From: an uncultured Eubacterium sp. | Lineage (GTDB): Bacteria > Bacillota > Clostridia > Lachnospirales > Lachnospiraceae | DNA length: 64,000 bases | Assembly (NCBI GenBank): GCA_949959185.1 | Contig: CATLIX010000006.1 | Location: forward strand, 1-64,000 | Direction of reading: 5' to 3' | Shown: positions 302 through 21,027 of the stretch, in pieces | How positions within the stretch are numbered: position 1 is the first letter of the stretch | How the letters are laid out: the number at the start of each line of letters is the position of its first letter | Translations under genes and position numbers: made by a program | Notes under the pieces: model-generated | Database searches by the model: none | What the model saw: the letters and a program-made list of their open reading frames with translations, nothing else | What the model was told of the DNA's origin: nothing

Positions 302-751
302 ATGGAAAGAACAATTAGGCGTGGCGACATCTACTACGCAGAGCTTAATCCCGTTGTCGGTTCGGAGCAGGGCGGCATACGACCCGTACTTATCATTTCT
401 AATGATATAGGAAATAGCCATAGCCCGACAGTCATTATCGCTGCCATAACAGGTAAAACACAGACAAAGGCAAAATTACCGACACATACCGAAGTAAAGG
501 ATGTTGAGGGGCTTGACAGGGACTCTATCATCCTGCTTGAACAGATACGGACGATTGATAAGCGACGTTTGCGGGAGTATATGGGAACTCTTGACAAGCG
601 TTTTCTTCCTGCAATGGACAAAGCGTTGGCAATTAGTATTGGTTTAAACGGATATTCGCAATGCCCGATGAAGCAGGGCAGGCTCTCGGCTTCTTTACCT
701 GCTCATGAATGTTGTCCGCTGCATGATGACAGCGTTCAAAAAAAGGATTAG
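302..751 (+). CDS. MazF/PemK-family toxin-like endoribonuclease
   Basis: This is a MazF/PemK/CcdB-fold protein, a family of ribosome-independent mRNA interferases that are usually neutralised by an upstream antitoxin. The N-terminal motif [20 protein letters not shown] followed by RPVLIISND and the TxKAKLPTH segment fit the family. A normal MazF would end near residue 118; here about 30 extra residues rich in Cys, Pro and His follow, with no recognisable domain. AGGAGG ends about 10 nt before the ATG. No antitoxin gene is visible directly upstream, and the small gene downstream does not resemble a known MazE. As part of the inserted element it may serve maintenance, or it may regulate RNA. 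Confidence 0.85.
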
Positions 752-812
752 CTCCCTCGTTATATGGTACAATCATTCGCTCATACATTGAGAATGAGGG
801 AGGTGTTGCCTG

Positions 813-998
813 TTGGAGCATAGAGAATTTAGGTATGTTGGCGAGCCTGTTCCAGAATTAAATGAGCAGGAACACGCAGCATTTCTTATGAATTTTCAAA
901 GGTCAATCCTTTTATCATTAGAAAAACGGAATCTGTTGACCGCATCACAGCGGGAACGCTGTTTGCTTGAGCTTGAAAAACAATATCGTCTAAATTAG
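813..998 (+). CDS. Small conserved-looking protein of the integrated element
   Basis: A 61-residue protein starting at TTG, with GGGAGGTG at 798-806 about 7 nt before it. It is charged and mostly helical (E, R, L, Q), without a membrane segment or signal peptide. It sits between the MazF-like gene and the recombinase and ends just before a terminator. I do not recognise a family. Its position next to the recombinase would suit a small accessory or directionality protein, and position after the toxin gene would suit an antitoxin, but neither is shown by the sequence. Confidence 0.6.
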   Translation: MEHREFRYVGEPVPELNEQEHAAFLMNFQRSILLSLEKRNLLTASQRERCLLELEKQYRLN

Positions 999-1070: not shown

Positions 1071-1099
1071 TCGACATACCATTTTCAATTAACTATACT
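1071..1099 (+). promoter_or_regulatory. Sigma-A-type promoter of the recombinase gene
   Basis: TCGACA (1071-1076), a 17-bp spacer, then TATACT (1094-1099), 41 nt before the recombinase ATG. It looks vegetative. CATACCAT at 1075-1082 fits a sigma-E -10 pattern, but no matching ATA lies 16 bp upstream. Confidence 0.6.
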
Positions 1100-1139: not shown

Positions 1140-2828
1140 ATGTCAATAGATAAATACGAAACCCTAAATCAAGAAAGGAAGATACAGCACACAAAGAGAA
1201 AGGTTGCCGCATACTGCCGTGTGTCTACGGACAACGAAGACCAGGCAAATTCATTTGAAAGCCAGCAGCGTTATTTCAGACAATATATAGAACGTAATCC
1301 CGATTGGGAGCTTTATGAAGTGTTCGCAGATGAAGGCATCTCTGGTACGAATACAAAAAAACGGAAAGAATTTAACCGCATGATTGCGTGTGCAAAGAAC
1401 GGTGATTTTGATTTGATTGTAACAAAAGAAATCTCCCGTTTTGCGAGGAATACCCTTGATAGTATATTCTATACCCGTGACCTCAAAAAGCACGGCGTGG
1501 GTGTTATCTTTATGAATGATAACATCAACACTTTAGACGGCGATGCCGAGCTTCGCCTTGCCATTATGTCCTCGATTGCACAGGAGGAAAGCCGTAAGAC
1601 TTCCGAGCGTGTGAAATGGGGGCAGAAACGCCAGATGGAGCAGGGAGTTGTGTTTGGGCGGAGTATGCTTGGCTACGATGTGAAAGATGGCAAAATGTAT
1701 ATTAACGAGGATGGGGCAAAAGTTGTCCGTCTTATCTTCCATAAGTTTGTAAATGAGGGGAAAGGAACTCATGTGATTGCCCGTGAGCTTCGGGAGGAGG
1801 GCATTAAGCCCATGCGGGTAAAGGAATGGCAGAATACAGTTATTCTCCGTGTTATCCGCAATGAAAAATACTGCGGTGATTTGGTGCAGAAGAAAACCTA
1901 TACGCCAGACTTTTTATCCCATGAAAAGAAGTATAACCGAGGGCAAGAGGAATTTGTAATTATCAAAGACCATCATGAGCCGATTATCTCCCGTGAGCTT
2001 TTCGATAAGGCAAACCGCATTTTGGATGAAAAGTCGCTTTCACAGGAGGGCAAAGCGAAACACAGCAACCGTTATCCATTTTCTGGGAAAATCAAATGCG
2101 GATGCTGCGGTTCAAGTTATGTGGCGAGATATAAAACCCGAAAAAATGGGAGCCGCTATAAGGCGTGGCGGTGTCTTGAAGCTGCAAGACATGGAAGCCC
2201 TCATGTGGACAAAGCAGGGAATCAAGTTGGATGCAGTGGACTTAGTATACGCAACGAAGATGCAATCCACATCATGTACCTTGTCACGAGCAGCTTAAAG
2301 TATAATAAGGAGAAAATCACTAACAATTTGCTTGCTATTATCAAGTCTATTATCGCAATGGATACCGCAGGTACAGATAGTGAGAAACTAAAATCACAGA
2401 TAAAAGCCATTGAACAAAAACGCACAAATCTCATTGACCTTTATACATCTGGCGATATTACCAGAGATGAATTTTCAGCAGCAAGGGCAAAATGTGAGAA
2501 TGAGATTGCTGAACTGCAATCCGTGATAGACAGCATAGACAAACAGAGGGAGATGATTGAAAAACAGCAAGAGCTTGTCGCTGAAATTACAGAAGCGATG
2601 AATGAGCTTATAAACGGTGTGGAATATGAAGATGATTTTTACAAAGAAATTTTAGATAAAATGGTTGTGAATGATAAAGACCATATTGATGTGTATTTGA
2701 ACCTGCTCCCCCTCAAATGGAGCTACACGGTTGCAAAAAGCGTAAACTGTCCACAGGGTAGACCGCTAAAAAAAGCTGGGGCCCCTGAGATGGAACATTT
2801 CAGGGGCTTCTCTACCAATATCGGTTAA
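1140..2828 (+). CDS. Large serine recombinase (resolvase/recombinase/zinc-ribbon)
   Basis: A 562-residue site-specific recombinase of the large serine family, which integrates and excises elements by a 2-bp staggered cut. The resolvase domain spans about residues 20-160, with AYCRVSTD placing the nucleophile at Ser29, then EGISGTN and the SRFARNTLD motif. A Recombinase domain follows, then a zinc ribbon near residues 318-370 (KCGCCGSSY and later Cys), and a charged coiled coil near 420-500. AAAGGAG lies before the ATG. Its last codons (TNIG, TAA) lie in or next to the attachment core and are antisense to the remnant of cotJC, so the gene's extreme 3' end depends on the insertion state. Confidence 0.95.
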   Translation: MSIDKYETLNQERKIQHTKRKVAAYCRVSTDNEDQANSFESQQRYFRQYIERNPDWELYEVFADEGISGTNTKKRKEFNRMIACAKNGDFDLIVTKEISRFARNTLDSIFYTRDLKKHGVGVIFMNDNINTLDGDAELRLAIMSSIAQEESRKTSERVKWGQKRQMEQGVVFGRSMLGYDVKDGKMYINEDGAKVVRLIFHKFVNEGKGTHVIARELREEGIKPMRVKEWQNTVILRVIRNEKYCGDLVQKKTYTPDFLSHEKKYNRGQEEFVIIKDHHEPIISRELFDKANRILDEKSLSQEGKAKHSNRYPFSGKIKCGCCGSSYVARYKTRKNGSRYKAWRCLEAARHGSPHVDKAGNQVGCSGLSIRNEDAIHIMYLVTSSLKYNKEKITNNLLAIIKSIIAMDTAGTDSEKLKSQIKAIEQKRTNLIDLYTSGDITRDEFSAARAKCENEIAELQSVIDSIDKQREMIEKQQELVAEITEAMNELINGVEYEDDFYKEILDKMVVNDKDHIDVYLNLLPLKWSYTVAKSVNCPQGRPLKKAGAPEMEHFRGFSTNIG

Positions 2829-2999
2829 AAGCCCTGCAACCTCCCGGTAAGGCATGGTATACCGCTGGGACAGGTACCGCATGGAAGCGGACAGTTCCCC
2901 GTCAGGTCCGCCGAACTGGCTGATAATTACCTGAGCAATCTGGGGATTGGTCTGAGTAATGTTTACCGGATACTGTAATCTTTTTTCATAATTCCACAT
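2766..2999 (-). pseudogene. cotJC: cotJC, 5' part only, disrupted by the integrated element
   Basis: CotJC is a spore-coat protein of the manganese-catalase-like ferritin fold, normally about 190 residues. Here about 62 residues match the family start (MWNYEKRLQYPVNITQTNPQ through to AGLLTDIG). After this Gly the frame runs into element sequence for about 15 unrelated codons and stops at 2766-2768. From memory the family continues with TEE-x-x-H, which supplies metal ligands, so the break falls immediately before the active-site codons. The ATG follows the cotJB stop directly. The protein cannot work unless the element is excised and the two halves rejoin. Confidence 0.85.
2771..2810 (-). terminator. 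Hairpin plus T-run at the element end, minus strand
   Basis: GCCCCTGA (2781-2788) and TCAGGGGC (2800-2807) form an 8-bp stem. Read on the minus strand the hairpin is followed within about 6 nt by seven T. It would stop cotJ transcription from running antisense into the recombinase gene. It lies inside the recombinase coding sequence. Confidence 0.55.
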
Positions 3000-3266
3000 T
3001 TAGCAGTAACCTCCTTCCCAGGGCATGGGCTGCATGGCCCACAGCCATTTCTGATCTGGTTTTGCGGTGTCAATGGTAAGAGGCCCGTAACAGTCTTCAT
3101 ATTCTTTCAGAGCTTTCATGCGCACTTCACGGAAATGGTTAAAGTAAGCGATTGCCTCCTGGTCCATGGGATGGGTGTCGAGATAGAGGACAATATCGTT
3201 TACCGCGAAACTTACCATATTAATCCACTGAAATAACTTCATCTGTTCCATCTGATTTCCTTTCAT
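3000..3266 (-). CDS. cotJB: Spore coat protein CotJB
   Basis: CotJB is a small spore-coat protein made in the mother cell. The 88-residue product has the typical helical sequence beginning MKGNQMEQMKLFQWINMV, with LYLDTHP and a Trp/Pro-rich end (WLWAMQPMPWEGGYC). A longer frame exists upstream, but the start at 3266 overlaps the cotJA stop as ATGA and has GGAGG 9 nt before it. An internal ATG at 3251 is a second option. Its length matches the family. It is cotranscribed with cotJA and the broken cotJC. Confidence 0.9.
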   Translation of the reverse strand: MKGNQMEQMKLFQWINMVSFAVNDIVLYLDTHPMDQEAIAYFNHFREVRMKALKEYEDCYGPLTIDTAKPDQKWLWAMQPMPWEGGYC

Positions 3267-3727
3267 TTCGGGCAGCCTCCTTTTCCGTAAAATGGTTTGC
3301 TCAGTTCCGGGAAAATGGTTCCGCACTGCAGCGCTTTGTCAGGCTCAAAGGTCTCATGGAAAAACTGCCAGGGGACATAAGCCATGGCAATGGGCATAAC
3401 AGCCAGCGGATCGGCTTTGTGCGGACAGTGCTCCGGCATGGACGGACAGTCTGCCATGGGATTCATGGGCATATCTGCCGGACATGGTTTCGGCATTCCG
3501 GGGCGCGCAGGCATATCTGCCGGACATGGTCTCTGTATCATGGGGCGTCCGTTCATGGAAGCCGGACATGGACGTTGCATCATCTGACGTCTCTGCATAG
3601 GTTCCGGACAGGAAGCTGGCATGGCCTGCCTTCCGCTCATGGAAGCAGGACATGGTTTTTCCGGCACAGACTGCCGGGGCGGGTTCTGACTGCAGCCGCA
3701 GTCGGGTGCTGTATGATAATTCGCCAT
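3263..3727 (-). CDS. cotJA: CotJA-like spore coat protein with a repetitive N-terminal extension
   Basis: The last ~50 residues (MAYVPWQFFHETFEPDKAL, then CGTIFPELSKPF) are the CotJA core, which by itself is a protein of about 80 residues. The first ~100 residues are extra and consist of degenerate repeats of the type RPCP-A-(S/D)-M-(P/N), rich in Pro, Met, Cys, Arg and Gln. Such low-complexity, Cys-rich coat proteins can be cross-linked, but that is an inference. AAAGGA precedes the ATG. First gene of the cotJ operon, with a sigma-E-like -10 about 38 nt upstream. Confidence 0.85.
   Translation of the reverse strand: MANYHTAPDCGCSQNPPRQSVPEKPCPASMSGRQAMPASCPEPMQRRQMMQRPCPASMNGRPMIQRPCPADMPARPGMPKPCPADMPMNPMADCPSMPEHCPHKADPLAVMPIAMAYVPWQFFHETFEPDKALQCGTIFPELSKPFYGKGGCPK
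3460..3665 (-). repeat. Degenerate short tandem repeats inside cotJA
   Basis: On the plus strand the phrase GCCGGACATGG or a close variant recurs around 3477, 3520 and 3560, with related GGACAGG/GGACATGG phrases near 3605 and 3648. The units encode PCPASM/PCPADM. Similar DNA as well as similar protein suggests recent duplication. Confidence 0.7.
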
Positions 3728-3764
3728 AATGGTAATCCTTTCTTTTTTTAAGTTGCTTTTTTAT

Positions 3765-3772
3765 ACAATATG
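3765..3772 (-). promoter_or_regulatory. Candidate sigma-E -10 of the cotJ operon
   Basis: On the minus strand CATATTGT fits the CATANNNT pattern of sigma-E promoters, about 38 nt before the cotJA start. The expected ATA 16 bp further upstream is not present (the bases there are CAC), so only the -10 supports it. Confidence 0.4.
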
Positions 3773-3805
3773 AAAAAGAGGGGAAATTGTGCAGTGATTG
3801 GAATA

Positions 3806-3883: not shown

Positions 3884-6800
3884 ATGAAGAATTTACGAAA
3901 AACAGCAGGAATTTCCATATTATTGATACTTTTTTTTATGGTGATAGCATTATTCCGATTTCAGAGTGATGGAGAAATCTCTGTTTTGCCATATCAGTTC
4001 GAATATTATTTTAATGATAACTGGAAAATGGCTTCTCTGAGCAGTGGGGAAGCAGAAGGTACAGACGGAAATCCGGATGTGCTCAGAACCAGGCTGGCAG
4101 AAAAACAATGGCAGAACGTGACTCTGCCATATGAAGGAAGCAGCAATGCCGGTGATATTGTTGTACTTAAAAATATACTGCCGGAGGAATATGCAGGGCT
4201 GACTCTGGGTTTTTCCTCTGCGGACGCCAGAATAGAAGTGATTCTGGATGGAAATGTGATTTACCAGTACGGAGCTGAGAACAGAGGGGAGATATCAGGA
4301 ACCAGGGAGCACTATGCAGATGTTCCCAATGTGTTTCAGGAAGGGGAACTCTGGATTGTACTGAGTTCATCTGTTCCGGATGGCAAGGCAGAGCTTGGAA
4401 CCATGAAGGTGGAAACACGGGATGCAGTGGTCATCGGAGTAGTGGAGAACAATATTGCAGATATCGGCTGCTGCCTGCTGATTATATTAATGTCCATTAT
4501 CATGTTTGTTCTGGCTATGATACGGCTTTATACCCGTCAGCCATTGAGGGGCGAACTGTTTCTGGGACTGACCGGGCTGGCAGCAGGCATTTACTGCTTT
4601 ATCGGAACCGATACGCTGAGTATTTTTTATGATGTGCAGGAAGCCTATGAGATGCAGGAATATCTGGTATTGCTCCTTCCGCTGTTCCTGACCCTGTATT
4701 TTGAGCGCAACCTGCATACATTGTATCCCCATCGCTTTTCTGTTCTGTTATGGTGTACCATTGCCAATGCGGCGGTACAGATTTCTCTGGAACTGCTGGA
4801 TATCCGAAGCCTGTCAGAGATGACAAACATATCGGCAGGAGTTATTGGAATTATCTGTGTTACAGCTATTGTGAGCCTGATACAGCTTGATTTCAGAAAT
4901 AAACGTTACCAGGCATTTTTATCGGTGCTGTCCATGCTGGTACTGCTGTCAGGGGGCATTGCAAATGTGATTATGAATACCTTTTTTCAGAATTTACATG
5001 GAAATACCTCCGGCCAGTACAGCATGGTGGTGTTCAGCGTTTTGATGGCTGTTATGCATACCCTGCAGCTTTCCAAAGAATACCGGGCAAATGTGGAAGA
5101 AAGTGCAGACCTTCTGAGCGAGAAGGTGAAGGCCGCGGAGCAGCAGAATATACAGCTTGCCCAGGCAAAACGGGATGCGGATATTGCAAGGCAGGAGGCC
5201 CTTGCGGCTAACGAAGCAAAAGGAAAGTTTCTGGCTCATATGTCCCATGAAATCCGTACGCCTATCAATGCGGTGCTGGGTATGGATGAAATGATTCTGC
5301 GGGAGTCCGGGGAACCTCAGATTCGGGATTATGCCATGGATATCTACATGGCAGGCCAGACATTATTGTCGCTGATTAATGATATTCTGGATTTTTCCAA
5401 AATTGATTCCGGTAAGATGGAAATTGTACCGGTGGAATATGATGTGAGCAGTCTGATACATGACCTGACCAATATGGCTTCTCAGCGGGCCAGGGAGAAA
5501 GGAATTCAGTTTGAAGTGGAAGTGGATGAGGGAATTCCTTCCCGGCTGCGGGGAGATGATGTTAGAATCCGGCAGGTCATTACCAATATTCTTACCAATG
5601 CGGTAAAATATACACCGGAAGGAACGGTATGGCTGCGGATTCGGAGCCTGGAATCGGACGGGCCGGCAGTACTCTGGGTTGAAGTGGAAGATACGGGGAT
5701 TGGGATCAAAGAAGAAGATTTGCCCAGACTGTCTGCGGAATTTGAACGTATTGAAGAAGACAGGAACCGGAATATTGAAGGAACCGGCCTTGGCATGAGT
5801 ATTACCATTCAGCTCCTTACTCTGATGGGCAGCAAACTGCAGATAAAAAGCGTCTATGGAGAGGGATCGAAGTTTTATTTTCAGCTGGAACAGGAGATTG
5901 TGGATGCTACGCCAATCGGAGATTTTGAATCCAGAGTACGCCAGATTGCGGAAAATTACAGCCATGGCACCGGATTTCTGGCCCCGGAGGCAGAAGTACT
6001 GGTGGTGGATGACAATGCGGTCAACCGCAAAGTATTCCGAAATCTGCTGAAAGAGACCAGGATTCTGGTGGCAGATGCACCGGGAGGGGCAGAATGCCTT
6101 TCCATGGTGCAGGAGCATCATTATGATTTGATTTTTCTGGATCACATGATGCCGGAAATGGATGGAATGGAAACTTTCCGGCGCATGAAAGAATTGTCCG
6201 ATTATCCCTGTCAGGATACGCCTGTCATTGTACTGACAGCCAATGCGGTGTCGGGAGCCAGAGAAAAATACCTGGAAGAAGGGTTTGATGAATTTCTGTC
6301 CAAACCCATTGTACCGAAGAAACTGGAAGAGATGATAAAAAGAATGCTGCCGGATGAACTGGTACAGGAAGCGCCTGACCATGGAGCGGAGCCTGCCGGA
6401 CAGCAGAACAGAGGAAATGAAGACTCCCTGGAAGAACTTCCCCAGGTGGACGGGCTGGACTGGAATTATGCATGGCTCCATCTGCCGGATATGGATTTGC
6501 TGGAATACACGGTCAGAGAGTTTTACGGACAGATTGATTCTGCTGCGGACAGTCTGGAACAGGCATATGAACAGCTCCTCAGTTCCGGCCAGTCAGATGC
6601 TTACCGGATTCAGGTACATGCCATGAAGAGCCTTGCGGCCACCATTGGAATTGTTCCTCTTGCCGGTCCTGCGAAAATACTGGAATATGCAGCGAGAGAT
6701 GGCAGAACAGATTTGCTCTACTCCATGACGAAGCCCTTTCTGGAAGAATGGCGCAGTTACCGTCAGAAATTGCAGGGCGTATTCGGACTGGAGGACGGCC

Positions 6801-14836: not shown

Positions 14837-16001
14837 GCGTCGCGTCAGGAATTTTATGCTTCTTGGGATGGCGGGGGCCAGTATTCTGGAATGTATTCTG
14901 TCCGGTATTCTGAGCCATCAGGAAACAGACCGGATGATAATACTGGTCTTTTTCGGGATTCTGTATTCTGTGGTTTTTTTGGCAGGAATGGAACTTTATC
15001 GCCTGCAGAAAGACTGGTTTTATGAAAAAGCGGCTGATTACAGAACCATTGCCCGGTGGTACTGGATATTCTGCGGAGCCGGAGTATTGTTCGGATTATT
15101 GCCGGAATATGCAAGGCCGGTACTTCTTCTGTCACTGGGTATGACGGTGGTTACCGGTAGTTTTTTCGGACTGGCTGCAGGAATTTTTCATGCGGCGGTG
15201 TTCTGCCTGTGCGGACAGACAAATGCCTGTGTGCTGCTGTGCGATATTTTTCTGTTGATTGGCGGCTGTATGGCGGCTTCTGTTTTGCAGGAAATCAAAG
15301 AGCAGCGCCATGAGATTTTGTTCCTGTTTCTCTATACCTTTGGCAGTATTTTAATCTTTTCCTTTGTACGGACTGGTCAACTGGAATGGGATGTGTTAAT
15401 CTATGGAGTATGCAATGGTATTTTTTCCTCCATTGGCGCCGGGATTTTATACCGGAAGGTATATTCATATCCTGAAAATTCCAGAAAACAGGAACTGGAA
15501 CGAATTGTGAGAGACGACTTTGGGCTGGTGCAGGAAGTACGGAAATTTTCCAAAATGGATTATAATCATGCCATGAAAGTATCCGTTATTTCAGAGAACT
15601 GCGCCAAAATTGCCGGAGCCGACCCGGATTTGGCGGCGGCGGCCGGGTTTTATTACCGTTTGGGCAGAATGGCCGGAGAGCCTTATGTGGAAAACGGAGT
15701 GGCTCTTGCCAGGAGCAACCGTCTGCCCTCGGAAGTCATTGCAATACTGCGGGAATATAACGGAGAGCAGGCATTGCCTTCCACACTGGAATCGGCCATT
15801 GTGCATATTGTGGACAGTGTGGTGACCAAATTTGACGTGCTGGATAAAGCCACCCTTTCCAGCTCCTGGAATCAGGATATTCTGGTGTATCAGACTCTGA
15901 ATGAGAATTCAGCTTCCGGACTTTATGACAAATCCGGATTCAGCATGAATATGTTTTTGAAAATCAGGGATTATCTTATAAAGGAGGCCAGTCTGTTTTG
16001 A
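14742..16001 (+). CDS. PgpH/YqfF-like membrane protein with degenerate HD domain
   Basis: In this gene order (phoH-x-ybeY) the slot normally holds pgpH, a 7TM-HD phosphodiesterase that degrades c-di-AMP. This 419-residue protein keeps the membrane part (about 50-235, six or seven segments) and a C-terminal HD-like domain (about 265-400), but lacks the large extracellular domain. The catalytic motif normally read as YHDIGK is YYRLGR here, and the downstream His-His pair (HHG) is replaced by EYNG. The metal site is therefore lost and phosphodiesterase activity is not expected. The start is uncertain: ATG at 14742, 14751 and 14760 are all possible, all overlapping phoH. Confidence 0.8.
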   Translation: MKSMRNMREKEAEITAENETEIKKLEGPKDTERRVRNFMLLGMAGASILECILSGILSHQETDRMIILVFFGILYSVVFLAGMELYRLQKDWFYEKAADYRTIARWYWIFCGAGVLFGLLPEYARPVLLLSLGMTVVTGSFFGLAAGIFHAAVFCLCGQTNACVLLCDIFLLIGGCMAASVLQEIKEQRHEILFLFLYTFGSILIFSFVRTGQLEWDVLIYGVCNGIFSSIGAGILYRKVYSYPENSRKQELERIVRDDFGLVQEVRKFSKMDYNHAMKVSVISENCAKIAGADPDLAAAAGFYYRLGRMAGEPYVENGVALARSNRLPSEVIAILREYNGEQALPSTLESAIVHIVDSVVTKFDVLDKATLSSSWNQDILVYQTLNENSASGLYDKSGFSMNMFLKIRDYLIKEASLF

Positions 16002-16492
16002 CAGTAAGTATAGAGGAAGAAGTGGAAGTGAATTTTCCTTTTGATTATAAGGAACTGGCGGAAGCGGTAATACGGAACGCGGCAGAGGCGGAAAAGTTTC
16101 CCTTTGAATCGGAAGTAAACCTGCTTCTTGTTTCTGCGGAAGAAATACGGAAGGTGAACCTGGAATTCCGCCAGATTGACGCGCCCACGGACGTACTTTC
16201 CTTTCCCATGATACAGTATGAGAAACCGGGAGATTTTACCGGAATTGAGCAGGATGAAGATAATTTCAATCCTGATACGGGAGAGGCGCTGCTGGGTGAT
16301 ATTGTGCTGTGCGTGGACCGGGTCAGGGAACAGGCCCTTGAATTCGGCCACAGTGAAGAACGGGAATATGCGTTCCTGATTCTGCACAGTATGCTGCATT
16401 TGTTTGGATATGACCATATGACCAGGGAGGAGGCTGCGGTAATGGAAGAGAAGCAGAGAAAACTCCTGAATCAGATGGATATTTTAAGATAA
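15998..16492 (+). CDS. ybeY: Endoribonuclease YbeY, rRNA maturation factor
   Basis: YbeY is a zinc metalloprotein needed for 16S rRNA 3'-end processing and 70S ribosome quality control. The 164-residue protein carries TDVLSFPM and the zinc motif HSMLHLFGYDH (H-x3-H-x5-H). The residue after the first His is Ser rather than the usual Gly, but the three ligands are intact. TTG start at 15998 with AAAGGAGG about 10 nt upstream; it overlaps the stop of the preceding gene as TTGA. Confidence 0.95.
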   Translation: MTVSIEEEVEVNFPFDYKELAEAVIRNAAEAEKFPFESEVNLLLVSAEEIRKVNLEFRQIDAPTDVLSFPMIQYEKPGDFTGIEQDEDNFNPDTGEALLGDIVLCVDRVREQALEFGHSEEREYAFLILHSMLHLFGYDHMTREEAAVMEEKQRKLLNQMDILR

Positions 16493-19455: not shown

Positions 19456-21027
19456 ATGAAAACAACAAAAGATAATCCTTCCGTAACATCCCAATCCGGG
19501 AAGCGTCACCCTGTCCGGCAAAAACTTCTGTCATCGTTGCTCTGCGTCTGTCTGCTGCTGGTATCGCTGCCCATGGAATTTTACGGTTTTGAAGTACAGG
19601 CGGAAGAACCATGCAGGCAAATCCTGTCCTTTTCGGATTTGCCCCAGGAAATCATGCACCAGACCCCGGAACCGGGGACGCCCCTGGAAAACCTGAACCT
19701 GCCGGAAATGCTGGAAGCAGTCTGCATTCTCCTGGAGAATGAGCCTGCCGTTTGGCCGGAAACTGGTTTTGAAATGCAGAAGACAGTCCGGGAACAGGAA
19801 ATATCTGAGCCCCCGGAGCAGGCAACGGACGCCAGTACCAACCTGGAAGAAACTGTTATGATTGAAAATATCACCTGGACCAGCGCTCCGTCTTATGAGC
19901 CGGAGACAGAAGGCGTGTATATTTTTACTCCGGTTCTTCCGGAACAGTATGTGCCGGCGGAAGGACTGCCATTGCCTGAAATTCAGGTGACCGTAAAAAA
20001 TGCGGAAGATTCCGAAGAAAAGGAAGAAAGCCGGGAACCGGCGGCTCAGGGAAAAAAAGCCAAATCGAAAACGCCGGAAGAACCGGAATATTCAGAAGAA
20101 ATGGAGGATTATAACAGAGAATCCGGTGACCTGGAATCTCTGATTTCTCCTGCTTCTGATGAGATTGTCATTTCTCAGGATACTCCCTGGGTTTCCGACA
20201 CTCTGAACAAAAATCTTGTGATTGAGAAAGGAGCCACCCTGACCCTCAATGGTACTCTGACTGTAAGCGGAAACGTCACAATTCGGGGGCAGGGTACCAT
20301 TGCAAGAGGAAACACAGGCGCAGGGATTGTGGTAAACCGCAGCGCGTCCCTGACCATGCAGGAAATCACGCTGAACGGAAAAGGACTGGAAGCTCCCCTT
20401 GCCATGATAAGGGTCAGCGGGGCTCTTAAAATGGAAAAGGGCTGTACCATTCAGGACTGCCATACCAGAGGCCCTTCTGAGCCAGGTTCTATAAAAGGAT
20501 ATGGAGGGGCAGTTTACCTGTTCTGGACCTCCGGCGCAAAGGCAGAGCTTTTGGACTGTACCATTTCGGACTGTACGGCAAGCGAGGGAGGAGCGGCTTA
20601 TTGCAGTAAAGACTGTACGCTGACCCTGGACAAAGGCTGCAGGATTGAAAACTGCCGGGCCGTAAAAGGCGAGGGGACAGAAACGTATCTGTTCGGGGGA
20701 ACCTTCCAGGGGAATTCCTGCACCTCGGAGAAATATGGGGGAAGCGGCGGAGCTTTCCTCTCTTCAGAAGGCGTACCGGCGTATGAAACCCATTTTGAAA
20801 TATCCGGCAATGTAACGTTCTGTGGGGATGAGACAAAACCAGGCATTGACAATATTTATCTGGATTCCAGAAATGAAATACCCCGGAAGATTATCGTCAG
20901 CAAACCTCTGAGTGAGCCGGTTACCGTTTACCTGGAAGGAGAGGAGCATTGTGTCATTGCAAAAGGCACGGAAAGCTGTTCCCTGACGGGGGCGTTCAGA
21001 TTTCCGGCTACAAAGCACCCTTTTTGA
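19456..21027 (+). CDS. Secreted beta-helix repeat protein, function unknown
   Basis: A 523-residue exported protein. The first ~50 residues form a long signal peptide (basic stretch, then LLSSLLCVCLLLVSLPM) with likely cleavage near VQA-EE. A Glu/Pro-rich spacer to about residue 240 is followed by a right-handed beta-helix of the kind seen in polymorphic surface proteins (TLTLNGTLTVSGNVTIRGQG, SLTMQEITLNG, CTIQDC, CTISDCTAS). No LPxTG, S-layer or other anchor is seen at the end. ATG 19456 has GGGAG about 9 nt upstream and is preferred over 19423, whose AAAGGA is too close. It could be a fragment of a larger adhesin. Confidence 0.75.
   Translation: MKTTKDNPSVTSQSGKRHPVRQKLLSSLLCVCLLLVSLPMEFYGFEVQAEEPCRQILSFSDLPQEIMHQTPEPGTPLENLNLPEMLEAVCILLENEPAVWPETGFEMQKTVREQEISEPPEQATDASTNLEETVMIENITWTSAPSYEPETEGVYIFTPVLPEQYVPAEGLPLPEIQVTVKNAEDSEEKEESREPAAQGKKAKSKTPEEPEYSEEMEDYNRESGDLESLISPASDEIVISQDTPWVSDTLNKNLVIEKGATLTLNGTLTVSGNVTIRGQGTIARGNTGAGIVVNRSASLTMQEITLNGKGLEAPLAMIRVSGALKMEKGCTIQDCHTRGPSEPGSIKGYGGAVYLFWTSGAKAELLDCTISDCTASEGGAAYCSKDCTLTLDKGCRIENCRAVKGEGTETYLFGGTFQGNSCTSEKYGGSGGAFLSSEGVPAYETHFEISGNVTFCGDETKPGIDNIYLDSRNEIPRKIIVSKPLSEPVTVYLEGEEHCVIAKGTESCSLTGAFRFPATKHPF

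Follow-up and report, generated by a model that had tools for sequence, protein, structure and literature searches.

The locus examined here raises the question of why the reading frame of cotJC follows its relatives as far as the codons for TDIG and then turns into element DNA, at the very place where the gene of a large serine recombinase ends. The window, by which we mean the whole stretch of 64,000 nucleotides analysed, carries on its minus strand an ORF (2766-2999) that is the 5' part of cotJC and matches profile positions 1-69 of PF05067 with an E value of 4.3e-18 (Table 1). A sequence-only reading of the window had described cotJC as normal up to TDIG and then as element sequence, with the change where the recombinase gene stops, and both points hold at base level. 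Likeness to relatives runs up to TDIG (codons 59-62), 2813 is the last base in common with the intact gene, and from 2812 downward the DNA is that of the element. The recombinase ORF is directed at cotJC and has its stop codon (2826-2828) within cotJC in antisense, 10-15 bases past the core. The insertion therefore lies inside the coding frame of cotJC and within the cotJ operon, a mother-cell operon. Its promoter is sigma-K-like by what we take to be the sigma consensus, and the ORFs that precede cotJC are, presumably, cotJB and cotJA, given their position. Because the window starts at the end of its contig (C6:1), the middle of the element falls outside it.

Table 1. Coordinates of the cotJC break, the recombinase end of the element and the neighbouring genes in the window.
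Feature	Position	Strand	Basis
PemK/MazF-family toxin gene, cargo	302..751	+	domain match
Conserved promoter-like motif ATANNGTACAANC-N7-CATA before the small ORF (sigma-E-like -10)	762..785	+	conservation
61-aa small ORF, candidate recombination directionality factor	813..998	+	conservation, linkage
Sigma-A-like recombinase promoter TCGACA-N17-TATACT	1071..1099	+	conservation
Large serine recombinase (Resolvase, Recombinase and zinc ribbon domains), directed at attL	1140..2828	+	domain matches; orthologues
Element arm of attL	2790..2812	-	read from junction sequences
attL core GGTA	2813..2816	-	common to attR at C33:3938-3941
cotJC 5' exon (codons 1-62 and core)	2813..2999	-	PF05067 match; junction comparison
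cotJB (presumed)	3000..3326	-	ORF; name from position
cotJA (presumed)	3263..3727	-	ORF; name from position
cotJ operon promoter, sigma-K-like (GCAC..CATATTGTA)	3764..3792	-	similar in the 12 genus loci printed

The missing 3' half, for which the sequence-only reading had proposed a search, is present on contig C33 of the same genome, where it is open throughout from the core at 3938 to a stop at 4354, is preceded by element DNA and has a normal end. Joined in silico at the core, the two halves give a protein of 199 aa that is 99% identical to an intact congeneric CotJC. A profile search of the genome returned only these two halves as matches to the family at E <= 0.001, so that a second intact cotJC, which would have spoken against the earlier proposal, was not found there. 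A same-species genome made up of five contigs has both halves on a single contig and the same strand, 79,787 bp apart, and it also shows the expected common core at both junctions. Four further complete elements in the genus measure 71,981, 32,964, 18,120 and 39,560 bp. All five contain an orthologous recombinase, which adjoins attL in three of them and is displaced by other DNA in two. Together, the arm of attL and the arm on C33 flank the core as an imperfect inverted repeat (GGAACATT..GCTTCTC / GAGAAGC..AATGTTCC), which is probably attP, as would be expected of such a site. A circular junction with the window-type attP pattern was found neither in the 29 genus assemblies nor in IMG/VR, and vegetative DNA need not hold any. 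A different arrangement was noticed in genome G014 (L062; C4:76000-95000), where an intact cotJC is followed 16 kb downstream by an attR-like junction with about 30 codons of 3' exon and with no recombinase match in between; this junction appears to be the remnant of a former element.

Separation of the halves by faulty assembly or binning might be suspected from the state of the window's own genome, which consists of 114 contigs and has the halves on two of them. Both halves are nevertheless on one contig in the five-contig same-species genome, together in two scaffolds of 3.2 and 2.2 Mb, and present in the one-contig genomes G346, G309 and G418, so that an artefact is refuted in these assemblies and has next to no probability overall. 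With the 3' half, the common core, colinearity in the same-species genome and no second intact copy, the proposal of an intervening element in cotJC is supported, and the identification of the insert as a sporulation gene-intervening element appears well supported. From this arrangement we infer that the element is excised, and that excision is confined to the sporulating mother cell.

Split cotJC genes are common. Both halves were found in 15 of 29 genomes of the genus, with no further match in any of the 15; the rest comprise three with halves of one kind, nine with an intact gene, one with a weak C-terminal match only and one with none. Across the family, 244 of 397 genomes have a cotJC match. 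Of these, 64 whose match patterns looked suspicious were re-listed, and 57 proved to have complementary parts (the other seven being G065, G406, G039, G044, G333, G375 and G365). At least 57 of the 397 family genomes thus carry complementary parts of cotJC, a lower bound since the remaining 180 family genomes, G000 and G014 among them, were not re-listed. The break is at site A only in 14 of the 57, at site B only in 27 and at site D only in 11, and five have two breaks; G194 is a diverged gene, and G088 has two tandem 3' parts. In the latter genome (L148, contig C68), the two copies of the 3' exon are near-identical and lie 3.1 kb apart. A stop was flagged within the matched stretch of G110 (in the 5' match), G187, G134 and G064, all of them without fetched DNA. 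The element within cotJC, the intact other half of the gene and the inserts in the cotJC of so many relatives together suggest that spore formation is accompanied by removal of the element.

To place the breaks within the gene, both junctions were compared in gene register, using DNA from 55 split genomes (15 of the genus and 40 of the 57 of the family). The breaks lie in three regions of the gene, each at a codon for a presumed manganese ligand or immediately ahead of one; we take these ligands from the family to be Glu35, Glu65, His68, Glu136 and His169. Site A (codons 28-32, core around TATGGTGGACC) lies directly before Glu35, and site D (codons 134-136, GCAGCAGA) at Glu136. Site B (codons 60-68) is used in at least three registers: B1, the register of the window (GGTACAGAAG), B2 (GAACTNGCACA or neighbouring bases) and B3 (GATATAGG). 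The runs common to both junctions are mostly 4-14 bases long; for G183, G221, G166, G250, G150, G309, G040 and G364, automatic core detection returned a run of 2-3 bases or one at another position. Double breaks with all three exons in hand occur in G087 (A and D), G139 and G286 (both A and B), and double breaks without the middle exon in G221 and G398. Among named loci, exon ends of the double-break pattern were seen in L186, L224, L225, L226, L241, L260 and L265 (A and B) and in L205 (B and D).

The recombinases follow these sites closely. Recombinases of 350 aa or more lie within 9 kb of an end at 49 of the 56 junctions inspected; 43 of the 49 point at the exon and six away from the nearest exon, and 39 lie no more than 100 bp from the exon match or overlap it by at most 100 bp. 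In a tree of 51 recombinases (G088 and G398 were left out of the pairing), A, B2 and D each occupy one side of a branch (SH-aLRT 99-100), B3 does so with a support of 68, and B1 is off by one row (G150). The five site labels require 4 changes on this tree, the minimum possible, compared with 29.6 in shuffles, where labels A, B and D come straight from the break and B1, B2 and B3 were assigned by hand from the core register. Since recombinase clades match break sites, at least four lineages of large serine recombinase use cotJC. The window recombinase is homologous to YokA, which we take to be SprA of SPbeta. Among the best 80 of its 186 relatives in named genomes, 70 have cotJC exons in the fetched stretch. 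No cotJC was seen in the fetched stretch of L195, L198, L200, L204, L229, L232, L234, L244, L248 and L249, and these window-type recombinases would represent nested inserts or other integration sites.

Retention of the recombinase is the rule, with at least 450 aa kept in 33 of 38 elements that have both ends in hand (1.6-79.8 kb) and a shorter protein in the other five (G183, G337, G377, G150 and G346); in G027 the recombinase has decayed. The element of G283 (2.4 kb) and the B element of G286 (2.5 kb) consist of little beyond it. In the window, the sigma-A-like recombinase promoter overlaps an inverted repeat (~1046-1076) that is present in many relatives, and weight is placed on its conservation because shuffles of the region average 1.4 such promoter matches. 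We also considered a C-terminal switch, by which the recombinase would gain a 73-aa tail in the circle through read-through of attL, and dropped it because the stop position varies between elements, either before the core or up to 134 bases past it. Another sporulation gene is split in a congener (L340; G010:C56:14000-20800), where spoIVA is in pieces at 14902-16104 and 19566-19844 around a 3.5-kb insert that has, at its far end, an open frame of ~550 aa matching a serine recombinase profile, and a core, CCATACATATG, common to both junctions. It is likely a spoIVA-intervening element.

Among 61 window-type recombinase loci that extend far enough upstream, 57 have the small ORF ahead of the recombinase. 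The small ORF was tried as a MazF antitoxin and rejected in this role for occurring without MazF in 30 of the 57 loci, 27 having both; MazF never occurs without it among the 61. Neither NCBIfam nor PHROGs has a family matching the small ORF, Pfam has none for the window protein, and one relative alone gave a Pfam match (E 0.06). AlphaFold models the protein as a confident two-helix fold (pLDDT 92), for which a Foldseek search of the PDB returned no informative match (best E 0.39). Its linkage to the recombinase and its conservation make it a candidate recombination directionality factor. In front of it, the core T[TA]ATAYnG[TG][AG]CAA is found in 60 of 73 small-ORF upstreams and is absent in 13, and in all 43 distinct upstreams that have the core, nATAYnnT follows exactly 9 bases on. 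This second motif element resembles CATATACT, which stands before most of the same-genus spoIVA genes printed, and GAATATT-N14-CATATATA before some spoIIIAA genes of the genus. Both spoIVA and spoIIIAA are sigma-E-dependent, and full-length matches for sigK, spoIVA and spoIIIAA are all present in the host; sigma-E would be the factor suggested by these likenesses.

The motif ATANNGTACAANC-N7-CATA was defined on B1 elements and then tested out-of-sample on site-D elements. Nine of the ten site-D elements have an unrelated small ORF of ~50 aa, and seven of the ten have the B1-defined motif before it (0-2 mismatches), never equalled in 200 shuffles each. At the same tolerance it is lacking in classes A (0/10), B2 (0/9 with enough upstream DNA) and B3 (0/4). 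Across the 29 genus genomes there are 13 strict matches, nine of which are small-ORF promoters, against eight for the reversed control, and as a general host promoter the motif was not clearly found before host genes of these genomes. The box GTACAANC is a poor match to the SpoIIID consensus of B. subtilis. It is likewise a poor match to the C. difficile consensus KRTAACARK, as given in the accessible part of PMC5025042. The small-ORF promoter is surrounded by an inverted repeat that suggested a hairpin sequestering the Shine-Dalgarno sequence as a guard against read-through transcription. We do not claim such a hairpin, because no conserved structure emerged from RNAalifold with 21 sequences and the left arm varies in several of them. 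Another inverted repeat, CCTCCTG..CAGGAGG, surrounds a -10-like site ~40 bases before most of the spoIVA genes printed (L266-L290) and could hide the ribosome site in read-through transcripts.

Our reading of the locus, to which we assign a probability of about 0.8 as a whole, is that mother-cell excision triggered by the small protein restores cotJC. A mobile large-serine-recombinase element sits in cotJC, with the TDIG codons on one side and the TEELAH codons on the other, and separates the codons of presumed manganese ligands. In growing cells, cotJC would be off and the split harmless. During sporulation, a mother-cell promoter would drive the 61-aa protein, and this protein would switch the recombinase, itself expressed constitutively, away from integration and towards excision. 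The GGTA cores in attL and attR would then recombine and release the element as a circle, so that cotJC would be restored in time for coat assembly and the forespore would retain the element. The sigma-K-like promoter of cotJ would act after this sigma-E-timed excision.

On the other hand, the insert might be an ordinary ICE/IME or a defence island that uses conserved cotJC codons as attB, inactivates a dispensable coat gene and excises only for transfer. The cargo gives this some weight. In the window species, defence genes occupy the right end of the element, namely Lamassu LmuA/LmuB and AbiEi/AbiEii (L003:3-1945 and 1964-3489), the LmuB of the Lamassu pair being cut by the contig end on the C33 side. 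The same-species element (G026) has neighbours that differ from those of the window species and include a TetM/W/O/S-family tetracycline resistance gene (L034:12759-14678), a CD1115-type VirD4 and a second recombinase; the VirD4-like gene is possibly within a nested element with its own recombinase, and the window's element is incomplete. Those genes of the window element that were scanned against Pfam and NCBIfam include no phage structural family, and the genus element of G004 seems, by eye only, to contain a prophage. Loss of cotJC could also be tolerated, given that CotJC homologues of C. difficile are described, in the part of PMC11222575 available, as having no significant effect on coat formation. 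In addition, the elements move between species: recombinase dS is far below exon dS in several species pairs (e.g., 0.02 against saturation for G003-G012), which indicates spread between species and some young insertions.

Several observations nevertheless make transfer alone an unlikely account. The exons compared are stop-free, with no stop in 44 3' exons (codons 66-178) or in 42 5' exons (codons 1-62), and they evolve like intact genes. Within the genus, median dN/dS is 0.027 for split 3' exons (34 pairs) against 0.039 for intact genes (23 pairs), and within the family 0.142 (36 pairs, one at 1.26) against 0.140 (18 pairs). Three doubly interrupted genes retain all their exons, small elements with little beyond the recombinase persist (G283 and G286), and the small ORF has a sporulation-like promoter. 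Mobility and developmental excision are, moreover, compatible, and SPbeta is described in PMC6957869, as far as that text was available, as doing both.

Sites under constraint give a more detailed picture. Of 54 split genes scored at 66 sites that are invariant in 34 intact genes, 28 show no change, 20 one or two and six more than two (G194, G346, G250 (register shifts), G398 (exon end mapped over), G300 and G309); G088 had no resolved positions. When intact genes were left out one by one, 26 of 34 showed no change and eight showed one to three, so that constraint at these sites is slightly looser in split genes. Leaving aside the shifted or mapped-over rows, every presumed ligand that could be resolved is unchanged. 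The only change at an invariant site in the genus is A134D in G027, the genome with the decayed recombinase, and one case proves nothing.

As insertions can be recent, exon conservation alone proves little, and recent insertion could be extended to all carriers, with the gene dead in each, too young to decay, and the carriers replaced in time. Low recombinase divergence in several genus pairs is in keeping with such turnover. Other pairs, however, have alike recombinase and exon dS (1.87/1.73 for G000-G010, 1.06/1.32 for G006-G015 and 1.46/1.17 for G004-G010) at an exon dN of at most 0.034, which fits long co-residence, and the presence of both halves in about half of the genus also runs against universal youth, which we hold to be very improbable. 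The stronger argument is the joint one, that cotJC is constrained and yet half of the genus carries the insertion, with no stops in the exons. Simple loss of the gene is disfavoured for similar reasons, since it predicts neither stop-free, constrained exons nor a conserved recombinase and small ORF, nor recurrent insertion by separate recombinase lineages, nor doubly interrupted genes with all their exons.

Excision as the means of restoring cotJC has precedents in other spore formers. In the skin element of C. difficile, a mother-cell gene (sigK) is split by a large-serine-recombinase element with CD1231 as recombinase and CD1234 as directionality factor. According to the sections of PMC5025042 at hand, the skin recombinase is made from a sigma-A promoter and the directionality factor from sigma-E plus SpoIIID, and the cotJC elements resemble it in that a sigma-A-like promoter precedes the recombinase gene and a sigma-E-like one the gene of a small protein that lacks database matches. 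They differ in target gene, in the many elements with diverse cargo, in a SpoIIID box that is not clearly matched and in that their excision is putative. SPbeta in spsM of Bacillus subtilis (SprA/SprB) is likewise a mobile element that splits a spore-envelope gene, in the portion of PMC4191935 seen, whereas no phage gene was seen in the parts of the window element in hand. The gin element in gerE of Bacillus cereus, a non-phage island, and the prophage-like yin in yabG of C. botulinum also join a serine recombinase to a sporulation gene, and an overlap sequence common to both ends is described for gin (PMC5595907 and PMC10747680, each in part). In contrast to gin and yin, the cotJC elements represent no fewer than four recombinase lineages, break a single gene at three places and sometimes interrupt it twice; yin is reported, in the text available, as unique to one strain, whereas cotJC elements span a whole family of hosts. 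The attachment site of phi027 in C. difficile R20291 lies beside a manganese-catalase-like coat gene, a cotJC homologue, described in the available part of PMC11222575 as downstream of attR.

The split genes listed in the accessible part of PMC6957869 are sigK, spoIVFB, spoVR, spsM and gerE, and that of PMC10747680 adds spoVFB and yabG. In our literature search, which had preprints and most subscription papers outside its scope, no paper on an interrupted cotJC was found. Sporulation gene-intervening elements have been described a few at a time in the papers cited, and in our reading the cotJC series forms a new group of them, one that is unusually large and has evolved repeatedly. We further think it fairly probable, with less assurance than for the excision reading itself, that cotJC in Lachnospiraceae is a hub for inserts removable at the DNA level. 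At least four recombinase lineages would each use another conserved stretch beside a metal-ligand codon, some genes would carry two inserts that both need removal, and the unrelated excision factors of B1 and D elements would stand under one common sporulation promoter motif. The germ line would in effect hold the gene as fragments, to be joined only in the mother cell as it dies, which would make cotJC a safe and reused harbour for defence and resistance cargo.

Such split genes can be misread as broken, which is a warning for the annotation of cotJC. The series yields many sets of recombinases, att sites and candidate directionality factors. It is also a natural test of why mother-cell genes are safe harbours, of how directionality factors evolve, and of how phage-defence elements spread among gut bacteria without harm to the host.
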